38,847 nt of DNA from assembly GCA_002731375.1 (NCBI GenBank), contig PCBT01000048.1, positions 38,320 to 77,166 on the forward strand. Reading direction: 5' to 3'. Position numbers and translations under genes: made by a program. Shown piece after piece: positions 19,024 through 37,938 of this stretch (the stretch's first letter is position 1; every line of letters begins with the position of its first letter). Below the pieces are notes generated by a model, which ran no database searches, had not been told where the DNA came from, and worked only from the letters and a program-made list of their open reading frames with translations. This DNA is from Rhodospirillaceae bacterium. GTDB taxonomy: Bacteria; Pseudomonadota; Alphaproteobacteria; GCA-2731375.

Positions 19024-20707
19024 TCAAATGCAATCAGACAGTTTTTCCGCCGCCATGATCGTGGTCAGGTGAATATTGGCGCAGGGAATGGCAGGCATGA
19101 TCGAGGCATCGGCGACCCTCAGATTTTTGATGCCAAGGACCCTGCCGGCACTGTCCACACAGGCATCGCGGTCACCTTTGGCGCCCATCCGCACGGTGCC
19201 GCAGGCGTGCCAGTTTCCCAGCGCCGTTTCACGGGCGAAAGCCTCTGCCGCATGATCATCGCGCAATAACTCATCTATTCCGTAACCTGAAGACGTGACA
19301 ACCCGCATGATCGCGTTTCGCGGCAAGACGCCAAGGTCCAAGGCAAAGGCGCCGACTTCCGTCAGGATTTTGTTGTACCAAGTCTTTATACCCAGGCGGC
19401 GTGTCCAATCCGTGTAGGCGCCGGCGAATATGGAGAATGATGCCTTTTGAATGGCGTCCGCCGACAGCACCTTGCAGGCAAAGCGGATGCCATAAATCAT
19501 CCTGGCAAGATCGCGCTCATCGGACAAAAGATTGAACGATACATGGGGTTCGTCCTTGGCATCGGTGGTGCGCAAACGGACCAGGCCACGGGAAAAAGCC
19601 TTATCCGGCCCGACCCGAACGACGCCGAACTGATGTCCGACCGCCGTTTGATCAAACCTGTTGCCCAATGACATCTTCATATCCTGGGGCGGACAGCCCG
19701 CCATCCGGGAGGAAAAACGGCTATAGACTATGCGACTGTAGCCGAGCGCTTCGTTTCAAGTGCACGCCGAAGCCGACAAGCGGATGATCCTGTAGATTGG
19801 CACCGACAGCCGGCAGATCCGCACGAACTTCAATGCCCATCTCGCCTAAATGCACGGCGGGCCCGATCCCTGCGCGCAGTAGGACCGCAGGGGTATGCAG
19901 AGCGCCGGCGCAAAGGATGATTTCTCCGCCCTCGAAGCGTTCCTTGCCCCCTGGGGGAGATACCGACACGACAGTTGCCCGTGTGCCGTCGAATTCGATC
20001 TGATCCACCTGGGCATCGGTAATGATGTCCAGGTTGGGGCGCCGGCGCACGGCGCTGTCGAGATAGGCGACCGCCGTGGTAATACGCCGGCCATAGACAT
20101 TGTTCTTTGGAAACGGGAAACAGCCATCACCGAATTCCGCATGGCAATCGTCATGATAAGGCAGGCCCTGCTCTGCCACCGCGTCGCGAAAGGCCAAGGC
20201 GAAACCAGCCCAATCTTCCGGGAATGTGCGGCGAATGCCCATGGGGCCATCCTTACCATGTAAGGGGCCGTCGAAGTCCATATCGCGTTCCAGCCGCTTG
20301 AAGTATGGCAGGCAATCCTCCCAACCCCAGCCCGCCGCGCCCATGTCCGCCCAGCCATCATAATCGGAGGGCAGGCCCCGGATCGCGACCTGCCCGTTGA
20401 CGCTCGAGCCGCCGCCCATGACCCTGGCCTGCTCGTAGCGCTGTGCCGTCATGGAGGCTTCAACTTCGCTGGGGGATCTGTTGCCAACGACATCGCGGAA
20501 GACTTTCAGCTTCGTCCAGTACCGCGACGGACTGAAATAGTCAGGCAAATGCCCTTCGGCGTTAATGGAATCAGGAATTTCATCGGGTAGCGTGTCGGGC
20601 CCGGCTTCGAGCAGCAGTACCGACGCAATGCTGCGCGCGGAGAGGCGGTTGGCAAGAACACAGCCCGACGAGCCGCCGCCAACAATAATATAATCGTAAT
20701 GCTTCAT
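19024..20707 (-). pseudogene. GMC oxidoreductase (choline dehydrogenase-like), frameshifted
   Basis: Two reading frames together make one GMC flavoprotein. The first (20707 down to 19721) has YIIVGGGSSGCVLANRLS, the GGGSSVNGQVAIRG FAD loop and GANLQDHPLVGFGVHLKRSA, then hits a stop after LQSHSL. The second continues immediately in another frame (VYSRFSSRMAGCPPQDMKMS), with GVVRVGPDKAFSRG and the catalytic WHACGTVRMG, and ends with TTIMAAEKLSDCI at 19024. Relatives have about 8-10 more residues at the junction, so a small out-of-frame deletion near 19718-19735 is likely. The rest looks well conserved, so the lesion is recent or an assembly error. The family oxidises alcohols, aldehydes or choline with FAD. 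Confidence 0.88.
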
Positions 20708-28645: not shown

Positions 28646-29467
28646 GGCATTGTCCTTCGACTGCAAACCGCACGGCGCCGAACGCACAACGGGCTGCTTG
28701 TCAAAAATTTATCGAATCTTCAACCGACTTTTTCCAGATGATCTTCAATTCAGGTACAAACGTAGACAGTTTTATCATAGAGGGAAAGAATTTAGCTCTG
28801 CGGCTACTCGATAGTCCCTATTTGATGATTTGGCTTCTCTCCCTAGCTGACACGTCATATTTTTTTCTACCTAGGTGCACCTCACCCATACTTTTCACTT
28901 CGCTATCAGTTTTCTCGGCCTATACCGGAACCGGCCTCCGCCGCAGGTCATCAATCAAGGTAAAAATTTGGGAACGTAGCAAGATGGATCAGACAACGCG
29001 GACCCACGCCCTACTATCAGCCGTGCACGGCGGCTTTTCCAGGCTTTGGGGTGTCTGGCTAGACTTCCGCTTTCGATACTGTGGACACCCTGCCTACCGG
29101 CATCTAGACGCTATGCAATAGGAAATCCTGATAGTCTGTTCATGGCGGATATTATTGAATAAGTCTTTTGTCGAGGCCGGTGGAAAATCTCAGTCTCACT
29201 GGAGCCCGGTTTGATAAAGGTTTGCGGAAGCGGACTCAAACTCCACGTCAACAGCAGGCGCAATTTGGCAAATCGTGAAGTGTGGTAAGTCAGACTTGAT
29301 CCGACAGGTGCCGATTTTTCCGGCGGCCAACAACCGGAACCATTTCCAAGATTAACCGTGACTGCTGGACTAAGTCCAGCATTTGCAAATACTATAATTG
29401 GTCCAAAATATCGGGGAGTTGGCTAGTCATCTACAGTATGGCTTGGACAGGGGTTTGGGGCAATGGG
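28646..29467. other. Gene-poor stretch before the TauE-like gene
   Basis: No recognisable gene on either strand; the sequence is lower in G+C and open frames are short and unlike known families. The right end should carry the promoter of the TauE-like gene and contains two adjacent palindromes (29363-29381 and 29381-29390). Confidence 0.5.
29363..29390. promoter_or_regulatory. Adjacent palindromes upstream of the TauE-like gene
   Basis: TGCTGGACT and AGTCCAGCA form a perfect 9-bp inverted repeat around one base (29363-29381). ATTTGCAAAT, a second 10-bp palindrome, follows with one base shared. They lie about 80 bp before the start at 29468. The first could be a hairpin or an operator; the lack of a T run argues against a simple terminator. 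Confidence 0.45.
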
Positions 29468-30244
29468 ATGGACCTGCTTGTGGAGCATACGTTCTATACC
29501 GCGCTAATGATCGGGTTGCTGGGCTCGACACATTGTATCGGCATGTGTGGCGGCATCTTGGGGGCGCTGAATGCCGGCCTGGCGCAATTCCGGCAGCGGT
29601 CAGCCCTGTCCCTGGCGTTGCTTCATCTTGGCTACAACGTTGGACGCATCTCTAGCTACGCCGTCGCGGGCACGGCAGCCGGCTTGATCGGCGCCCAGGC
29701 GAACAAATTGGATCTGAGTGCGACAATCTCGGTCGGCAACCTGATTGCCGGGCTTTTCATGATAGCCCTGGGGCTCTATCTCGCCGGTTGGTGGCAGGCC
29801 ATTGCTTCGCTAGAAAAAGCAGGCGCGCAGGTCTGGCGGCTTATCAAACCTATTGGCCGGCGTTTTTTCCCCGTCAAGACGCCGGTGGACGCCTTCGGAC
29901 TGGGGCTGATTTGGGGCTGGTTGCCATGCGGCCTGGTTTATTCTGCGCTGACGCTGTCGATGATGTCGGCCACACCATTTCAAGGGGCACTGACCATGCT
30001 AGGCTTTGGCATCGGTACCTTGCCCGCGCTGCTGGCTCTGGGCATCGCCGCAGGGCATCTTGGATCAATTGCCCGCCACCCCGTGACGCGTCAGGTGGCG
30101 GGCGTCGGCATTATCCTATTCGGAATCTATTCCTGCCTGAACGCATTCAAAGGCGGTGGCCACGGTCATTCTGCCGGCCAGCACCAGGACATCGGGAATT
30201 ATTTTGGTGTGCCCAGCCTTCTCAATACTTTCGGATTGGCCTGA
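29468..30244 (+). CDS. TauE/SafE- or DsbD-like integral membrane protein (copper/cytochrome maturation type)
   Basis: A 258-residue polytopic membrane protein with about six hydrophobic segments. The conserved GLLGSTHCIGMCGGILGAL near the N-terminus and WGWLPCGLVYSAL in the second half are the paired Cys/Pro motifs of the group usually annotated as sulfite exporter TauE or DsbD_2. Members accompany cbb3 oxidase assembly genes and heavy-metal ATPases. An in-frame ATG 30 bp upstream (29438) is possible, but 29468 starts directly before the first membrane segment. The C-terminus has a His-rich GGGHGHSAGQHQD that could bind metal. Its end overlaps the end of the copper ATPase on the opposite strand by 46 bp. 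A part in copper delivery to the nearby CuA enzyme is inferred. Confidence 0.82.
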   Translation: MDLLVEHTFYTALMIGLLGSTHCIGMCGGILGALNAGLAQFRQRSALSLALLHLGYNVGRISSYAVAGTAAGLIGAQANKLDLSATISVGNLIAGLFMIALGLYLAGWWQAIASLEKAGAQVWRLIKPIGRRFFPVKTPVDAFGLGLIWGWLPCGLVYSALTLSMMSATPFQGALTMLGFGIGTLPALLALGIAAGHLGSIARHPVTRQVAGVGIILFGIYSCLNAFKGGGHGHSAGQHQDIGNYFGVPSLLNTFGLA

Positions 30245-32574
30245 TCTAAGCTCGCCGATAGGCTCAGCGAACCTGTACTTGCCATGGATCGGGCTGAATT
30301 CCACACCACCAGGAGGCTGCTCGCCGACATCGCCACGGCGGCGAACAGTGGATTGAGATACCCGCTCACGGCCAGCGGGATCGCCACCGCATTGTAAAGC
30401 AGGGCCCATCCAAGATTCTGCCGCACCCGACGCCGGATGATGTCGATCAACTCAAATGCGCTGAATATCCGCTCCAGTCTTTCACCGGGGATGACCACAT
30501 CCGCCGCCTCCGCTGCCAGAGAGGTGGGGGCACCGAAAGCAATACCCAGATCGGCGGCGGCAAGGGCCGGGGCATCATTACTGCCGTCGCCGATCATAGC
30601 CACGGTCCCTTCCGATTTGAGACCTCGGATGACTGCTGCCTTGGCCTCGGGTGGCACACCGGCAAAGACCTGATCGACCCGCTCTTCGTAGCCGCTCGAA
30701 TGCGCCGCGCCGGTCAGCAACACTACGCGGCTATTTTGCCTGAGGGCATCGACGACCCGTTCCCATTGCGGGCGGGATTGGTCCCGGGTGACGATAGCGC
30801 CTCGCAGCCGACCCTCCCAGCCGACGTAGGAGACCACTCCGTCACCCGGCGCCACGCGTACAGCGAACGCCGTCAAATGGCCGGGTATTTCCCAGCCCAG
30901 GAAAGCAAACAGGGCCTTTCCGCCAACCGCGACCCGTCGACCATCGACGCGCGCCACCGCCCCCCAGCCTGGATAGAATTTGAGATCGATTGCGTTCTGT
31001 CGAGAATCCAAGCGCGCGATCGCTTCGGCGATTGGGTGTGGCGAGAGACGTTCGACTGCAGCGGCGTATCCGGCCATCTCTGGCGGACCTTCAAGCTCGG
31101 TCACCGCCATGTCGCCAGTTGACAGGATGCCCGTCTTGTCGATCGCGATGATGTCGGGCCGAGGGATTTTTTCGAAGGCCGCGGCGCTGGTAATGATAAT
31201 GCCTTGACGCAAGGCCGTGCCCACGCCGACCGCCGTCGTCAGCGGAATAGCCAAGCCAAAGGTGCAGGGACAAGAGACGATGAGCGTTGCCAATCCGGCT
31301 AACAACGCTGCTCCCGGGGGGGCGCCGTCGAGGATGAACCAAAAAGTGACGCCAGCAGCCAGTCCCAGAACCAACGGTACGAATAGCCGGGCGGCCCGGT
31401 CGGCCAAACCCTGGACGCCAGTGGCCGAACTTTGGACGCTCCAAAGAATCCGGGCGAGGACATCCATCTGACTTTGGACCTTGGGGCCGACCATGATTTC
31501 CAACTCGCCCTCCTTGACGATGGACCCACCGAGGACGGTTTCGCCCGCTCCGCGCGTGATCGGAAAGGGTTCTCCGGTCAGAAACGATTCATCGATCCCG
31601 CCGATTCCGGCGACAATGGTTCCGTCCACGGGAATGGTTTCCCACTGCCCGACGGCAATGCGGTCGTCCGGCTGAAGCTCATCGGTCGACACACTTCTGT
31701 ATCGGCCCTTACGTTGGACTCGCGCCCGAGGGGTCCAGGCGGTCATGATGTTGGTCAGTTCACCCGTGGCGTGGGCTTTTGCCTGATGCTCGTTATAGCG
31801 GCCAATCGTTACCACTGCCACGATTACCGAGGCCACATCGAAATAGAGATCGAGTGATTCGGAGAAAAATTGGCCGATGCTGTAGCCATAGGCCGCCAGA
31901 ATGGCAATCGCTAGAAGATTGTCCATGTTCAAGGCCCGTGCCCTGAGGCCGATCCACGCCCCTCGTAAGATTGGGGCGCCGACGTAAAAGATGAGCCCCG
32001 TGGTAAGGATGAGCATGACGTAGGGGACGACGTCGAATGCCAGCCAACCGACCGCTTCCAGATCGCGAGCACTGATAAGGCCCAGGTGGATGGGGTAGTA
32101 AAAGGCAAGATAGAGCATCATCACCACGGCGGCGAAACAGGTCCCTATGAGAAGCCGGAGCAGGGTTTTCCGGTCATCGTAAAATGCCGCGCCGTCGGAG
32201 CACAGACGGGCGCGGTAGCCGCTACCGCTCAGGGCTGCGGGTAAATCGTCTTCGCCAATAATACTGGCATTGAAGACAATCCTGGCGGTTGAGGTGGCAT
32301 AGTTCGCCGTTGCAGAATAGATCCCCTCGATCCGCGATGCCGTGCGCTCGATCAGGAGTTCGCATGAGGCGCAATGCATCCCATCAATTCTGAGAAATGC
32401 TTCTGCGCCCTGGGGGTCCGCTCCGTACTCTGGTTTTTGGTCCGCCGGCTTCCCGGTCACGGCAGCTTCGCCAAAGCATCGGTACACCTCCCGGCAGCCG
32501 AGACAACAAAAAACATGGCCTGCAGCCCGGATTGGCGGCGCCGGCAAGGGTAACCCGCAGAGCTTACAGTCCAT
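30199..32574 (-). CDS. Copper-translocating P-type ATPase (CcoI/FixI-like)
   Basis: A 791-residue P1B-type ATPase. An N-terminal cysteine cluster (CKLCG at 3-7 and FCCLGCREVYRCF at 22-34) matches the zinc-ribbon-like extension of CcoI/FixI proteins. A heavy-metal domain follows with GMHCASC (C68, C71). Eight membrane helices are expected. TGE is at 333-335, the ion-path motif SCPC with C435 and C437, and the phosphorylated Asp is D479 in DKTGILSTG. SPHPIAEA and GDGSNDAPALAAADLGIAFG complete the ATPase core. The phosphorylation loop is DKTGILS rather than the near-universal DKTGTLT, an unusual change next to the active Asp. CcoI-type pumps send copper to the periplasm for oxidase assembly; here the CuA protein is the likely client. 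It runs opposite to the oxidase genes. Confidence 0.92.
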   Translation of the reverse strand: MDCKLCGLPLPAPPIRAAGHVFCCLGCREVYRCFGEAAVTGKPADQKPEYGADPQGAEAFLRIDGMHCASCELLIERTASRIEGIYSATANYATSTARIVFNASIIGEDDLPAALSGSGYRARLCSDGAAFYDDRKTLLRLLIGTCFAAVVMMLYLAFYYPIHLGLISARDLEAVGWLAFDVVPYVMLILTTGLIFYVGAPILRGAWIGLRARALNMDNLLAIAILAAYGYSIGQFFSESLDLYFDVASVIVAVVTIGRYNEHQAKAHATGELTNIMTAWTPRARVQRKGRYRSVSTDELQPDDRIAVGQWETIPVDGTIVAGIGGIDESFLTGEPFPITRGAGETVLGGSIVKEGELEIMVGPKVQSQMDVLARILWSVQSSATGVQGLADRAARLFVPLVLGLAAGVTFWFILDGAPPGAALLAGLATLIVSCPCTFGLAIPLTTAVGVGTALRQGIIITSAAAFEKIPRPDIIAIDKTGILSTGDMAVTELEGPPEMAGYAAAVERLSPHPIAEAIARLDSRQNAIDLKFYPGWGAVARVDGRRVAVGGKALFAFLGWEIPGHLTAFAVRVAPGDGVVSYVGWEGRLRGAIVTRDQSRPQWERVVDALRQNSRVVLLTGAAHSSGYEERVDQVFAGVPPEAKAAVIRGLKSEGTVAMIGDGSNDAPALAAADLGIAFGAPTSLAAEAADVVIPGERLERIFSAFELIDIIRRRVRQNLGWALLYNAVAIPLAVSGYLNPLFAAVAMSASSLLVVWNSARSMASTGSLSLSASLDQANPKVLRRLGTPK

Positions 32575-32763: not shown

Positions 32764-33321
32764 ATGCTTGATTCTCTTTTCCAGAACGCGTCGGGAGCAT
32801 ATTTCTTCATGCTCTGTCTTCAAATTCCTTTCCTTGTCGTGTTTCTTTACATTATCTATCGCAAGGGTTTCGCAAATCCCGATCCGAGCGATGCCGACCA
32901 GCGCAAGCTTTCACGTGTGGACGGGCTTTGGGTCACATTCGTCATCATCCTGTTCCTTGGGATCAATATCGCTAGCATCGAGTACATGCCGCCGATATCA
33001 TCGGCGCGAGCTGTGTCGACACAGCAAAACATTCGAGATGTCGATGTAACAGCGGAATCCTGGTCCTATGAGATGTCGGCGCGGGAATTCGAGGTTGGAC
33101 AGGCGGTCCGTTTCTCGGCCAAAAGCGCCGACACAATGCACAGTTTCGCCATCTACCACCCGGATGGCAGAATGTTGTTCACGATGATGCTGATGCCGGG
33201 ATTGGAGACGCCCGCCTCGATCGTTCATACGTTCACGGAACCGGGCATCTACAAGGTCCGCTGTTTGGAGTATTGCGGCGCCGCTCACCACGAGATGCGG
33301 GATGAGATCGTTGTCAAGTAG
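32764..33321 (+). CDS. Cytochrome c oxidase subunit II-like CuA protein
   Basis: A 185-residue membrane-anchored cupredoxin. Two N-terminal hydrophobic helices (FFMLCLQIPFLVVFLYIIY and LWVTFVIILFLGINIAS) precede the CuA domain. All binuclear CuA ligands are present: H126 in MHSF, then C167, C171, H175 and M178 in CLEYCGAAHHEM, with the bridging-loop Glu169. The start at 32764 follows AAGGGG; a TTG 27 bp upstream is weaker. Two helices resemble A-type oxidases, whereas Thermus ba3 subunit II has one. The domain takes electrons from a c-type cytochrome or cupredoxin. Subunit I follows 38 bp downstream, so the two form one complex. The same kind of subunit occurs in oxygen reductases and in CuA-type nitric oxide reductases. 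Confidence 0.93.
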   Translation: MLDSLFQNASGAYFFMLCLQIPFLVVFLYIIYRKGFANPDPSDADQRKLSRVDGLWVTFVIILFLGINIASIEYMPPISSARAVSTQQNIRDVDVTAESWSYEMSAREFEVGQAVRFSAKSADTMHSFAIYHPDGRMLFTMMLMPGLETPASIVHTFTEPGIYKVRCLEYCGAAHHEMRDEIVVK

Positions 33322-33359
33322 AGCAGCCAATAAGCAAGTCAAGGATGGAGGGTAAGAAA

Positions 33360-34895
33360 ATGGTAACTGCGACGAATATTGTCCAACGCATCCCTCTTTT
33401 GGGCAAGATGTTCAGTGTCGACACGAGCACGGGGTTGGAGGAGATCAATGCTTGGCCAAGCCTGATGGTCTTGACCTCGTTTGTCTGGCTCGCAGTCGCC
33501 GGGCTTTTGGGCGTGGCGCTACCGCTCACCCAGCTGTTGGGACTTGACAGCGCTTTGTACTATACCGCGCTTACCGCGCACGGCGCGGCGCTGGCCTTTC
33601 CCTTCTTGTTCCAACTAATGATCGGTGTGTCCCTGCATCGGACGGCCGGCTGTCTGGGCAGACCGGTTACCGGTTGGCTTCCAGCCTTGATCTATATCTT
33701 CATGAACGTTGGCTCTGTTCTTCTGACGCTCGCCATTTTGGGTGGGCTTAAGATCAGTTATGCCCTGATGTATCCGCTGCCCATCGTCGGTGTGCAGACC
33801 GGTCAATGGAGCATGGACGTGGTCATCCTCGGCTTTACCGGCATAGCGCTAGTCATCACTACGGTCATCGTATTGTATCCCGTACAGGTATTGTGGATGT
33901 TGTTCTTTGGCAGGGAGCGCGAGGATCTAGTGCTGGAACGGCGCACGCTCAGGGACCCCGGCATGCTGGGAATGGCGATGGCGGTGTTGGTGCTTCTGGT
34001 TGCCGGAATACCCATTCTTATTATCGCGGGGCTCATTCTACTCGGTTTGTATGGGGTCATTCCCTTGACCGCCATCGCTTGGGCGACAGAACCAGTGGTC
34101 TTCCAATTCGCCTTCTTCATTTTTGCCCACAATCTGATGGAAGCCATGGCGATCATGATTGTCGCCGCGGTTTATGCGACATTACCGCTTTATCTCGCCG
34201 ATGGCACCCGCAAGCTGTTTAGCGACCGCCTGGCTAAGTTGGCGCTCTGGATATTGCTTGTCGCCTCCCTGACTTCGTTTTTCCACCACTTCTTCACCAT
34301 GTTTCCTGCCATGCCCTCGGCGCTCGCCTATCACGGCAACATCATGAGCTGGGCCACTGGGATCGGCGGCGCGTTGACGATTTTCACCATTCTCGCGACG
34401 ATCTGGAAACACGGCCTGAAGCCCGAACCCGGTACTATGGCTTTGCTCATGGGCTTCGCGCTTTACATCCTGGATGGCGTCAGCGCTGTCGTTACATCAA
34501 ATGTGGCCTGGTCTTTCCAGATCCATGGAACGATGTGGCAGGCTGGCCATACTATGGGCGTCCTGGTCGCTATCACGTTGATGTGGATGGGCGTTTTCTA
34601 CCATCATTATCCCGTTATCACGGGCCGCAGACTTAACCGTGTAAAGGGTAATTGGTTCGTCGTTCTTTATAGCATCGGAGCGGCTGGGGCATTTTACTCG
34701 TTTTTGGCGGCGGGCGTGGCCGGCATGCCCCGACGTTTCGCAGCGTGGGATCAGGAAGGCTGGATGGTGTACGGCAACTTGGTCCTGATCTTCGGACTCC
34801 TGATCGCCGCGGGTCTGGTGGTCTTTGCCTGGGACCTGCTGAATTCCCGGGAGATCGAGACTTCTCCGGGTGAGCAAACGGTGGCAGCGGAGTAA
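33360..34895 (+). CDS. Heme-copper oxidase superfamily subunit I, divergent; probable CuA-type nitric oxide reductase
   Basis: A 511-residue protein of about 12-13 membrane helices. ATG 33360 is chosen because GGAGGG at 33347-33352 is ideally spaced. Numbering from it: H74 in TAHGAALAF is the helix II low-spin heme ligand. H257 in IFAHNLMEAMA is the first metal-site His, but four residues later, where oxygen reductases have the cross-linked Tyr (HPxxY), it has E261. NorB has the same His-x3-Glu. H309-H310 (SFFHHFFT) are the other metal ligands. The helix X motif is WQAGHTMGV: H397 can bind the active-site heme, but the second His of GHFH is M399. General similarity is to B-family (ba3-like) enzymes. 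No CcoO/CcoP or NorC gene is near. An NO-reducing role is inferred from these residues; oxygen reduction is less likely. Confidence 0.85.
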   Translation: MVTATNIVQRIPLLGKMFSVDTSTGLEEINAWPSLMVLTSFVWLAVAGLLGVALPLTQLLGLDSALYYTALTAHGAALAFPFLFQLMIGVSLHRTAGCLGRPVTGWLPALIYIFMNVGSVLLTLAILGGLKISYALMYPLPIVGVQTGQWSMDVVILGFTGIALVITTVIVLYPVQVLWMLFFGREREDLVLERRTLRDPGMLGMAMAVLVLLVAGIPILIIAGLILLGLYGVIPLTAIAWATEPVVFQFAFFIFAHNLMEAMAIMIVAAVYATLPLYLADGTRKLFSDRLAKLALWILLVASLTSFFHHFFTMFPAMPSALAYHGNIMSWATGIGGALTIFTILATIWKHGLKPEPGTMALLMGFALYILDGVSAVVTSNVAWSFQIHGTMWQAGHTMGVLVAITLMWMGVFYHHYPVITGRRLNRVKGNWFVVLYSIGAAGAFYSFLAAGVAGMPRRFAAWDQEGWMVYGNLVLIFGLLIAAGLVVFAWDLLNSREIETSPGEQTVAAE

Positions 34896-35016
34896 CGGGC
34901 CGCTGGGCGGACGGTGACGATTGCCACGGCACGCTTGGCGAGCGCGCGGCTTCGGCGGCGCCGGCCGGGTTGGTATAGGGAATCCGGGTTCCAGGTTCGC
35001 GGAATAAGGTAGCCTG

Positions 35017-35874
35017 ATGAACGCTGCAAGCCGGCTCTTTTCTATCTTCAAGCTCCGCATTGGTATGGTCATCACCCTGAGTGCGCTTGCCGGCTTGGCC
35101 GTGGCGCCGGGTCCTGCGCCGACGGCGTGGCAGGTGCTGGTGCTGGCATGCGCGGTGCTGGTATCGGCTGCCAGCTCAGGTGCCTTCAACCAGTATTACG
35201 AGCGCGACCTCGACGCCCGTATGTCGCGTACCCGCGACCGCCCCTTCGTGACCGGTGCGGCCCGTCCTGGGGCGGCGTGGCTGGTCGTGATCTGGGGACT
35301 GCTCGGGCTTTCGGTGCTGGCAGCGGCCTTGGCCATTAACCTCTGGGTGGCGCTTTACATCTTCCTCGGCTCCTTTACCTATGCCGTGATCTATACCGTC
35401 TGGCTCAAGCGACGGACCTGGCTCAACATCGTCTTCGGCGGCTTTTCCGGCAGCTTTGCCGTGTTGGCCGGGGCGGCAGTGATGGGGCCAGAGCCGGCCG
35501 GGGCGCCGTTGGCCCTGGCGGTCGCGCTGTTCTTCTGGACGCCACCTCATTTCTGGAGCCTGGCGGCGGCCCTCAAGGTAGACTACCAGGCGGCGGGCGT
35601 GCCCATGCTGCCGGTGGTGGTAGGACCAGAGCGCGCCGGCCGCATCATCCTGGCTAGCACGGTGCTGCTGGTGACGGTCTCGCTGGTGCCGGTATTGTTT
35701 GGGCTGGGTGCGATCTACCTTATCGGGACAGTGGCCGGCGGTGCCTACTTCCTGTGGCGTAGCGTAGAGCTGGCCCGCGATCCGACGCCTCGGCGCGCCA
35801 TGGTTAACTTCTTTGCCTCGCTGGTGCAACTCAGCCTGATGCTAGCGGCAGCGATGCTCGACGGCTGGCTTTGA
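35017..35874 (+). CDS. ctaB: Protoheme IX farnesyltransferase (heme O synthase)
   Basis: A 285-residue UbiA-superfamily prenyltransferase that adds a farnesyl group to heme b to make heme O. The first aspartate-rich motif is NQYYERDLDARMSRTRDRP (about 58-76), and the second region has YTVWLKRRTWLNIVFGG with SGSFAVLAG. WTPPHFWSLAAALK is a hallmark of CtaB. About eight to nine membrane helices are expected. It lies 121 bp after subunit I on the same strand and probably supplies its heme. No heme A synthase (CtaA) is in the window, so the enzyme may use heme O, or CtaA may be elsewhere. The gene looks richer in G+C than the oxidase genes before it. Confidence 0.94.
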   Translation: MNAASRLFSIFKLRIGMVITLSALAGLAVAPGPAPTAWQVLVLACAVLVSAASSGAFNQYYERDLDARMSRTRDRPFVTGAARPGAAWLVVIWGLLGLSVLAAALAINLWVALYIFLGSFTYAVIYTVWLKRRTWLNIVFGGFSGSFAVLAGAAVMGPEPAGAPLALAVALFFWTPPHFWSLAAALKVDYQAAGVPMLPVVVGPERAGRIILASTVLLVTVSLVPVLFGLGAIYLIGTVAGGAYFLWRSVELARDPTPRRAMVNFFASLVQLSLMLAAAMLDGWL

Positions 35875-35984
35875 ATTCCGGGTGTGATCTGCCATGAATT
35901 GCGCTGCCCGAATGCCGCTGCTGGCGGATCCACTAGCGTAGGCTACCGCCCGACGTCAAAGCGGAATTCCAGGATTTGCAGTGA

Positions 35985-36296
35985 GTAGCCAATGGCGCCG
36001 CGCTTTATGCGGTGTTCTTGGAGCAACGCATCCAGCACCATGCGAGTTTTCTCGCTGCGACGCAGACTTTTGCCAACGATACCACGCGGGAGTTGCTGCA
36101 CAGTGCCGGCTTATTGATCCCGCAGGCTGGCGTCTCCGATCTGGTGCGCGACGGTGTTGCTGCGTGGCATTTGAAGGAGATGATCGTGGCGCAGGCCACC
36201 GCCTTGGGCTTTCAGGACGGATTCGTCTTTATCGGCATCAGCCTGATGATCCCGTTTGTCCCCTTGATCTTTATGTCGCAGAGAGCCAAGACTTAG
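35985..36296 (+). pseudogene. C-terminal remnant of an MFS drug-efflux transporter (DHA2/EmrB type)
   Basis: About 103 codons that read like the end of a 14-helix DHA2 transporter: AALYAVFLEQRIQHH, ASFLAATQTFAND, SAGLLIPQAGVSDLVRD, MIVAQATALGFQDGF, then VFIGISLMIPFVPLIFM. Upstream in the same frame there is a TGA at 35982-35984 and no further homology, so the first 80% of the protein is missing. A GTG at 36012 could start a short peptide, but function is unlikely. Confidence 0.7.
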
Positions 36297-36663: not shown

Positions 36664-37938
36664 TCAGGCGTCAATTTCCATGTTGGACTTTGGCACTGTG
36701 ATGCAGGCAAGACAGGAGCCGTCTTCCGGGGGTGAACCTGGTTCACTGACATATTCGACTTCGCCCTGCTTGATCGCAGTGACGCAGGAGCCACAATTCC
36801 CTGCCCGGCAACCAGAATTGATAGCGTTGACCCCATTGCACTCTGCAAGCTCAAGCAGCGATCCGGTCTCGGGTGTCCAGGTGATCTTTTTGTTGGACCG
36901 GGCAAAATTAACCTCGTAAGAGACATCCGGCGCTGCACCATCAGCCTTCTGTTCATCCTTGGTCTTCTTGACCGAAGCCGGGCCGAAGGCTTCAAAGTGA
37001 ATGTTCTTTTCAGGAACACCCCATTCCCCCAAGTCACCCACAATGGAGTTCATCATGGGCGGCGGGCCACAGAGATAAAAATCGTAGTTGTTCGAATCCA
37101 ACAGTTCCTTGAACAGCGGCACGCCAACACGGCCTGCATGCTGGTAGTCCTCACCTCCCACATCGTCTTCTGCCGGGTTGGAATAGCAGACATGTAGATG
37201 CACGTTGATGTTTTCACGGGCAATCTGGTTCAGGTGATCCTTGAAGGCATGGTCCTTGCCACTGACGATGCCATAGAAGAAATGGGTTTCGCGCTGTGAT
37301 CCGGTTGCGACAATGGCATTGAGCATGGACAGGACCGGCGTCAGACCAACACCGCCGCCGATCAAGACAACCGGGTTGTGGGACGACATATCCAGATAGA
37401 AATGGCCAGACGGGGCCATCACATCCAGGATGTCGCCTTCTTCCATATGGTCAAGGAAATAATTGGATGACAGGCCTGGTGGCAATTCGGGCTGGTCCCT
37501 GGGGGGAGGCACGCGCTTGATGGAGACCCTATAATAATCCGGATGGTTGGGACTGTCCGACAGGGAATAGCAGCGAACGATGTTTTTAGTTTGGCCCGGT
37601 ACCGGCAAGTTGAAGGTCAGGAACTGACCAGGTTCAAAGGGTGGCAGGTTCTTTCGGTCATGGGGGGTGAGATAGAACGAACATACGCCGTCAGCTTCAA
37701 TTTGTTTGCGCTGGATTTCGAACTTCCTAGAGCCGTTCCAGGAAAGGTCCGTTTTCTCCCTTTCCATGCGGCGGCGATCGGCAATCAGATCGATTTGCGC
37801 CCGCAGCAGATTCTGCTGGTGTTCATGGGTTTTCCGCGCCAGCAGGGTGCGACGGTTGTACATCAGGGCCCAGCTGCCCGTGCAGACAGTGACCACACCA
37901 AGAAAGGTGATCGCAGCCAGATCAATCAGAACATCCAT
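36664..37938 (-). CDS. Membrane-anchored NAD(P)H:2Fe-2S flavoreductase (FNR-ferredoxin fusion)
   Basis: A 424-residue electron-transfer protein. A single N-terminal membrane helix (residues about 5-28) and a charged stretch rich in Arg and Lys come first. The FAD domain has RCYSLSDSP (RxYS motif), and the NAD domain has LIGGGVGLTPVLSML and CGPPPMM. The C-terminal ferredoxin has C377, C382 and C385 (SGCRAGNCGSC) and a fourth ligand at C412 (CLAC). NqrF has a membrane helix too, but its 2Fe-2S domain precedes the flavin domain; here the order is reversed, as in Hcr or phthalate dioxygenase reductase. No NQR subunits, Hcp or oxygenase are in the window. Start follows GGAGAGGAG. It would pass electrons to a membrane or soluble acceptor not seen here. 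Confidence 0.9.
   Translation of the reverse strand: MDVLIDLAAITFLGVVTVCTGSWALMYNRRTLLARKTHEHQQNLLRAQIDLIADRRRMEREKTDLSWNGSRKFEIQRKQIEADGVCSFYLTPHDRKNLPPFEPGQFLTFNLPVPGQTKNIVRCYSLSDSPNHPDYYRVSIKRVPPPRDQPELPPGLSSNYFLDHMEEGDILDVMAPSGHFYLDMSSHNPVVLIGGGVGLTPVLSMLNAIVATGSQRETHFFYGIVSGKDHAFKDHLNQIARENINVHLHVCYSNPAEDDVGGEDYQHAGRVGVPLFKELLDSNNYDFYLCGPPPMMNSIVGDLGEWGVPEKNIHFEAFGPASVKKTKDEQKADGAAPDVSYEVNFARSNKKITWTPETGSLLELAECNGVNAINSGCRAGNCGSCVTAIKQGEVEYVSEPGSPPEDGSCLACITVPKSNMEIDA

Follow-up and report, generated by a model that had tools for sequence, protein, structure and literature searches.

Two replaced residues in a heme-copper subunit I

What reaction does a heme-copper enzyme perform when a glutamate stands where oxygen reductases carry their cross-linked tyrosine, and a methionine stands where a histidine normally holds the low-spin heme? 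This question is raised by one gene on a 38,847-nucleotide stretch of DNA (the window) from a Rhodospirillaceae bacterium (GenBank assembly GCA_002731375.1, contig PCBT01000048.1, positions 38,320 to 77,166). By PF00115 homology and fold match, its open reading frame (ORF) is a member of the heme-copper oxidase superfamily; the subunit I family it represents is here called X, and the window's own genome G000. X is a CuA heme-copper enzyme with probable nitric oxide (NO) reductase function, and its double change was present in no compared family. A more specific reading, a cytochrome c/CuA-dependent NO reductase (NOR) of a separate superfamily branch with a His/Met low-spin heme, is given a probability of roughly 0.58.

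In the profile search, X matched PF00115 (COX1) with an E value of 9.8e-40 and 137.2 bits, above the cut-off of 34.8. The annotation models tried recognised X only as a cytochrome c oxidase and far under cut-off, the top NCBIfam oxidase model being CtaD with 88.5 bits against 670.75. An AlphaFold2 model built from 17 sequences reached a mean pLDDT (predicted local distance difference test) of 79.1 and a pTM (predicted TM-score) of 0.84; where helix X begins, residues 388-395 fell below a pLDDT of 50. The query TM-score against solved COX1-type chains was 0.70-0.78 across the top 25.

Residues were compared in a 20-row set, comprising the window protein and 19 relatives from one genome-contig scan, and in a 39-row alignment of 15 X rows with 24 references (10 A-type, 7 sNOR, 4 eNOR, 1 cbb3, 1 cNOR and 1 ba3). 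Ligand roles are those that we presume from solved oxidases. Passages of PMC3475470 were used in addition.

33345-34895, plus strand: heme-copper subunit I (X), 516 codons open, likely start at 33360
33579-33581, plus strand: H79, low-spin-heme His of helix II, invariant in 17/17 full-length rows
34125-34145, plus strand: helix VI motif AHNLMEA with H262 and E266 (E266 codon 34140-34142), Glu in 20/20 rows, in the Tyr column of the 39-row alignment
34284-34289, plus strand: H314 and H315, the two adjacent His of helix VII at the binuclear metal, invariant in 17/17 full-length rows
34545-34556, plus strand: helix X motif GHTM with H402 and M404 (M404 codon 34554-34556), HxM in 20/20 rows, HxH in 24/24 references

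Numbering here starts at 33345, so the residues called E261 and M399 in the first-pass annotation, counted from 33360, are E266 and M404. The Met codon at 33360 is the start in most full-length relatives, which supports the start chosen there.

The glutamate was first noticed for its NorB-like spacing. In the 39-row alignment, which is ungapped at this site, E266 occupies the column of the oxygen-reductase Tyr (HPxVY), where cNOR reads HLWVE; it lies at +4 from H262, the CuB/FeB-site His, exactly as in cNOR. Helix X of X reads HGTMWQAGHTM. Here H402 took the column of the high-spin-heme His and M404 that of the low-spin-heme His; the two columns form a His-x-His pair that was kept in all 24 comparison proteins (A-type, ba3, cbb3, cNOR, sNOR and eNOR). 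In 3/3 HMMER pairwise alignments with solved oxidases, M404 again fell beneath the second His of HFH (ghtm against shfh or ahfh). On helix VI, one of the three sets E266 directly against the Tyr, and the other two open a gap of three residues after H262, which leaves E266 out from under it. The alignments make GHTM the heme site of helix X, and none placing it elsewhere appeared.

Both the helix VI Glu and the helix X HxM were present in every one of the 20 rows. Among the 17 full-length rows, E266 was the sole invariant Glu, residues 403 and 405 varied while H402 and M404 did not, and no invariant Tyr was found in residues 290-325, in or near helix VII. This invariance between variable neighbours, together with the lack of an invariant Tyr in that segment, speaks against both a chance change and a Tyr of the cbb3 type. 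A Tyr supplied from helix VII as in cbb3 was rejected on the same count, and a frame or sequencing error was rejected because the identical two residues recur in 19 relatives. Passages of PMC3475470 treat the histidine sextet, and with it the bis-His ligation of the relay heme, as a signature of the superfamily, mitochondrial complex IV included; in X five of the six are invariant, and Met replaces the low-spin-heme His of helix X in 20/20 rows.

A separate branch in the superfamily tree

The 19 relatives are metagenome-assembled genomes (MAGs) of alpha-, beta- and gammaproteobacteria, Proteobacteria not further named, and one 'Marine bacterium'. They were found by scanning genome contigs with short peptide patterns from one protein, a search that distant members escape, and the 16 full-length relatives aligned share 54-81% identity with the window protein. 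At E <= 1e-20, no close member occurred in 40 relatives of the window's genome. None was found in 397 other sampled Pseudomonadota either, where weak matches appeared in 22 genomes and the best, an sNOR, scored 66 bits against 922 for the window protein. A scan of 252 plasmid records gave no close relative (all below 60% identity, none spanning 80% of the query). Plasmids did supply the named sNOR and eNOR references, and none of three pattern matches in viral contigs was a relative. In the genome of L020 (G452), two PF00115 matches on contigs C23 and C53 had X-like scores, and a second copy of X may exist there.

The tree was built from 15 of the 20 X rows, leaving out L013, L016 and the fragments L019-L021 and stripping ambiguous letters (L022), against references that contained no bNOR, gNOR or nNOR sequences. 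The 15 rows formed one clade with 100/100 support outside the reference groups, on a stem of 2.13 changes per column, and the sNOR (100/99), eNOR and A-type rows each formed a clade of their own. X as a separate branch of the heme-copper superfamily, one of the two options raised in the first-pass annotation, is thus supported by the sequences compared. The best tree placed X beside sNOR (95/87, with a long-branch warning). Approximately unbiased (AU) tests did not reject grouping X with the A family (p 0.141), with eNOR+ba3 (p 0.183) or with C/cNOR (p 0.188), so that the place beside sNOR is not secure. The suggested kinship with B-family oxidases was consequently not shown. A position inside the oxygen reductases did not appear in the best tree, although the grouping with the A family was not rejected.

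These data bear on whether X could reduce oxygen without the cross-linked Tyr, perhaps slowly or with high affinity. A-type cytochrome c oxidase gave X its best profile and fold matches, it shares the MPRR motif and a CuA partner, and the AU test does not reject their grouping; the heme o synthase and copper ATPase genes beside X (see below) serve oxidases too. Nevertheless, the cross-linked Tyr, located on helix VI in A and B families or on helix VII in the C family, was found at neither place in X: the helix VI position holds an invariant Glu and residues 290-325 contain no invariant Tyr. In contrast, the family motif is kept in all 16 A, C and ba3 proteins, references or co-residents, for which helix VI was compared. 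X further differs from the A type in one of the six signature His, and in Thr or Ser (T345) at an alignment column that we take to be the K-channel Lys position. Oxygen reduction by X is considered quite improbable.

Comparison with known nitric oxide reductases

In passages of PMC3475470, NORs replace the Tyr by Glu, Gln, Asp or Asn, and some lose a CuB/FeB-site His to Asp. Table A4 of PMC8756737, in the part used, assigns Glu to cNOR and qNOR, Asn to sNOR, Gln to eNOR, Asp to gNOR and Asn to CuANOR. No row in these portions of the two sources describes a CuA enzyme that combines Glu at this position with Met at the relay heme. A narrow search of the open-access literature found no report of a Met-ligated low-spin heme in the heme-copper superfamily.

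sNOR (NorSY; e.g. on a Ruegeria pomeroyi megaplasmid, L050 4968-6398) resembles X in having a CuA subunit II beside subunit I, a YPLP-like loop and the PRR motif, but all 7 sNOR rows combine HxxxN with GHFH where X has HxxxE with GHxM. Membership in sNOR was rejected, given Glu instead of Asn in 20/20 X rows and the position of X outside the sNOR clade. eNOR (HSSQQ rows L058-L060 and L062) is likewise a NOR-type heme-copper enzyme with an altered Tyr position, and its Defluviimonas copy is adjoined by a heme o synthase gene, with SCO genes also beside it. However, HxxxQ and an intact HxH were present in 4/4 eNOR rows, which form their own clade, and membership was rejected because X has Glu rather than Gln.

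A separate observation concerns eNOR itself. Six loci (L096-L100 and L103) encode proteins of 457-547 amino acids with 25-28% identity to eNOR subunit I, in which a pattern search found no helix X H-x7-H-x-H/M. Four of these proteins (L097, L098, L099 and L103) share a stretch with an intact eNOR, and the group is possibly a degenerate heme-copper paralog that accompanies eNOR.

cNOR, represented by NorB of Sinorhizobium meliloti (L065), shares with X the helix VI HxxxE, E266 being the Glu typical of cNOR and qNOR, and the HGT that opens the helix X motif. It differs in lacking CuA kinship and PRR, in an intact helix X AHGH, and in standing as a cbb3-like row in the tree. The cNOR/qNOR lineage, which uses NorC or a fused heme c and no CuA, was rejected for X on the CuA subunit II found at 17/20 loci and because the best tree separates X from the cNOR row, although the AU test does not reject an X + C/cNOR grouping (p 0.188). 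The bNOR/CuANOR of Bacillus azotoformans has a CuA partner like X, and its NO reductase activity is published (passages of PMC3475470); it carries Asn at the Tyr position in the parts of PMC8756737 and PMC3475470 used. Memberships in bNOR/CuANOR (Asn) and in gNOR (Asp) were both rejected on the Glu of X, judged by the published residue and not by sequence.

X may nonetheless belong to a CuA-type NOR family already described, most plausibly the nNOR of Murali et al. 2024, and would then be a member of a named family. The five other named families differ from X at the Tyr position (Asn in sNOR and CuANOR, Gln in eNOR, Asp in gNOR) or in kind (Glu without CuA kinship in cNOR/qNOR), as listed in the part of PMC8756737 used; these differences do not bear directly on nNOR. 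Identity with nNOR is the main doubt about X as a new family, and it is judged possible but on the unlikely side.

The CuA subunit, neighbouring genes and a proposed electron path

A subunit II gene lies immediately upstream of X, and three further genes around the pair encode proteins of recognised type.

32764-33321, plus strand: subunit II with a complete CuA site, upstream of subunit I; ORF from TTG 32737, ATG 32764 the likelier start
35017-35874, plus strand: CtaB/CyoE heme o synthase, downstream of X (TIGR01473 246.2 bits, cut-off 210.3)
30199-32574, minus strand: heavy-metal P-type ATPase of the copper kind (TIGR01525 above cut-off; TIGR01511, copper, 362.4 bits, below the cut-off of 397)
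29438-30244, plus strand: DsbD_2 membrane protein (PF13386, E 1.7e-52)

The CuA subunit had been described as fully intact, which the relatives bear out. The ligands H135, C176, E178, C180, H184 and M187 (numbered from 32737) were invariant in 15/15 aligned subunits II; 17 subunits II were found in total, the copies of L006 and L007 standing outside the alignment. All 17 lie upstream of X, and the contigs of the remaining three loci start within subunit I. Neighbour genes were counted by tblastn within flanks of at most 6 kb, with several contigs ending nearer. Matches to the copper ATPase were obtained at 16/20 loci, to CtaB at 10/20 (that of L011 spanning only 51 amino acids) and to DsbD_2 at 8/20. 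By position, we take the ATPase at 30199-32574 to be CcoI-like.

In the proposed mechanism, electrons from cytochrome c would enter at CuA in subunit II and move on to the low-spin heme, whose ligands would be H79 and M404, a His/Met pair instead of the bis-His one. From there they would reach the binuclear site, where H402 would bind the high-spin heme and H262, H314 and H315 a Cu or Fe, and where 2 NO + 2 e- + 2 H+ would yield N2O + H2O. E266, at the cross-linked Tyr position, could act as a metal ligand or proton relay. The adjoining genes for a heme o synthase and a copper ATPase point to a high-spin heme of o type and a copper site, the heme type being read from the CtaB neighbour. Copper over iron is favoured by the copper ATPase and by the absence of NorQ/NorD-type genes from the neighbours recurring at at least three X loci, with no genome-wide search for NorQ and NorD made. 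For cNOR, the insertion of FeB requires NorQ and NorD, as stated in the part of PMC9976466 used. The choice of NO as substrate, the His/Met heme, copper over iron and the heme type are all inferred.

The His/Met heme proposed in the first-pass annotation rests on the invariance of Met in the ligand column of the alignment, and on this footing it stands as a prediction from sequence. A Met ligand is expected to raise the potential of the relay heme. As a conserved natural exception to the bis-His relay heme with the other metal ligands intact, X would be a ready-made test of the ligand's role in heme potential and electron flow. A bolder proposal is that these are CuA NORs not described before, in which a NorB-type Glu was gained independently, the His sextet was broken and a natural His/Met high-potential low-spin heme sits between CuA and the catalytic site. 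This is advanced tentatively, at somewhat less than even odds. If X does reduce NO, it would offer one more example of NO reduction that emerged alongside oxygen reduction, and an added source of the greenhouse gas N2O; some of the assemblies are from marine and groundwater samples.

The two unusual changes together, and a patchy distribution with no close member in the 40 relatives or the 397 other Pseudomonadota, might also point to another N-oxide or redox function, such as NO dismutation, or to a complex without catalytic turnover. Against this stands the invariance of the rest of the binuclear site and of CuA, which suggests electron-consuming catalysis, and such a function is held to be very improbable.

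One observation limits how far the neighbourhood of X can be read downstream. Positions 32900-35990 of the window recur without a mismatch as the opening 3,091 bases of contig C26 in the same assembly, after which the contigs diverge. The match reflects a genuine duplication or else an assembly repeat, and genes past 35990 may therefore not be true neighbours of X.

Nitrogen-oxide genes in X genomes

Genome context is the second line of support for an NO reductase function. The X genomes are MAGs, with completeness known for G000 only (96.2%, 6.66% contamination). D1-family (cd1) proteins at E <= 1e-60 were present in 12 of the 20 X genomes and in 34 of 200 sampled Pseudomonadota, and are thus commoner in X genomes (Fisher p 6.6e-5). 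At locus L006, a full NirS gene, its product having both cytochrome c and D1 domains, comes next among the recognised genes downstream of X; it is convergent with X at a distance of 768 bp. The genome G440 carries nirS-like and nosZ genes, and among its three PF00115 matches X is the sole candidate for the intervening step. TIGR04244 NosZ matches at E <= 1e-20 occurred in nine X genomes, three of them above cut-off, and G000 is among the nine. Its NosZ is of the clade III lactonase type (NF052460, 788 bits, cut-off 700; L119 1037-2788, minus strand, on contig C57). Clade III NosZ was found in two of the 200 sampled genomes, the window's own included, and a partial one below cut-off is present in G442, which is the genome of L010, the nearest relative. 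Among the PF00115 matches of G000 there were only X and an A-type oxidase, with no other NOR-type subunit. Besides G000, seven genomes (G440, G442, G443, G444, G445, G447 and G448) likewise had no NOR-type subunit other than X among their PF00115 matches.

Taken together, the points in favour of NO reduction are the invariant Glu in the Tyr column as in NorB, the CuA site, the D1 enrichment, the nirS of L006 and the gene sets of G440 and G000. The first-pass proposal of an NO reductase is supported only by these two kinds of evidence, residue logic and genome context.

Several observations weigh against it. The D1 enrichment test was uncorrected for relatedness and habitat, and NirK was above cut-off in 0/20 X genomes. 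Another NOR-type subunit is present in 10/20 X genomes: seven have eNOR, four cNOR, three a qNOR-like one and one sNOR. These counts leave aside several PF00115 matches in G435, G438, G439, G450, G451 and G452, with G439 and G450 placed neither way. G000 contains D1 fragments only, and no intact nitrite reductase or NirK was found in it. These are two short D1-domain (nirS-like) fragments on contig C49 (about 60443-62308, L117), one with an internal stop, near an intact uroporphyrinogen-III C-methyltransferase gene, and they look like a decayed nir cluster. Furthermore, G443, G444, G445, G447 and G448 had neither a D1 match nor NirK, and no NO source was found there. As no intact D1 gene or NirK was found in G000 or these five genomes, a respiratory role is not supported in them. 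Finally, formaldehyde genes neighbour X at nine loci and need not concern NO.

These last genes bear on a different role, in which X would serve defence against nitrosative or carbonyl stress in non-denitrifiers, X removing NO and AdhC handling S-nitrosoglutathione or formaldehyde. Gfa and AdhC matches lie in the flanks of nine of the 20 loci (L009 and L011-L018) and FghA matches in those of five; the AdhC match of L014 spans only 105 amino acids, and one at L006 (34% over 97 amino acids) was left out of the count. AdhC and FghA of L012 score above curated cut-offs, and G443, G444, G445, G447 and G448, which lack D1 and NirK, are genomes of Gfa/AdhC loci. In the part of PMC3499171 used, AdhC, a formaldehyde enzyme, protects Haemophilus from S-nitrosoglutathione; the E. 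coli equivalents, however, answer to formaldehyde and not to S-nitrosoglutathione in the part of PMC4776306 used. The loci of the window's clade, except L009, have no Gfa, AdhC or FghA in the fetched flanks, and D1-family genes occur in 12/20 genomes; a defence role for X is rated unlikely. The glutathione-branch neighbours themselves point to nitrosative or carbonyl stress without choosing between them.

Two further features of the window were recorded. At 36664-37938 on the minus strand lies a 424-amino-acid FAD/NAD-binding and 2Fe-2S reductase, whose best NCBIfam model is the NO-inducible flavohemoprotein (258.8 bits, below the cut-off of 432). At 19024-20707, also on the minus strand, a GMC oxidoreductase gene is split or frameshifted, its N- and C-terminal domains falling in the neighbouring ORFs 19721-20707 and 19024-19704.
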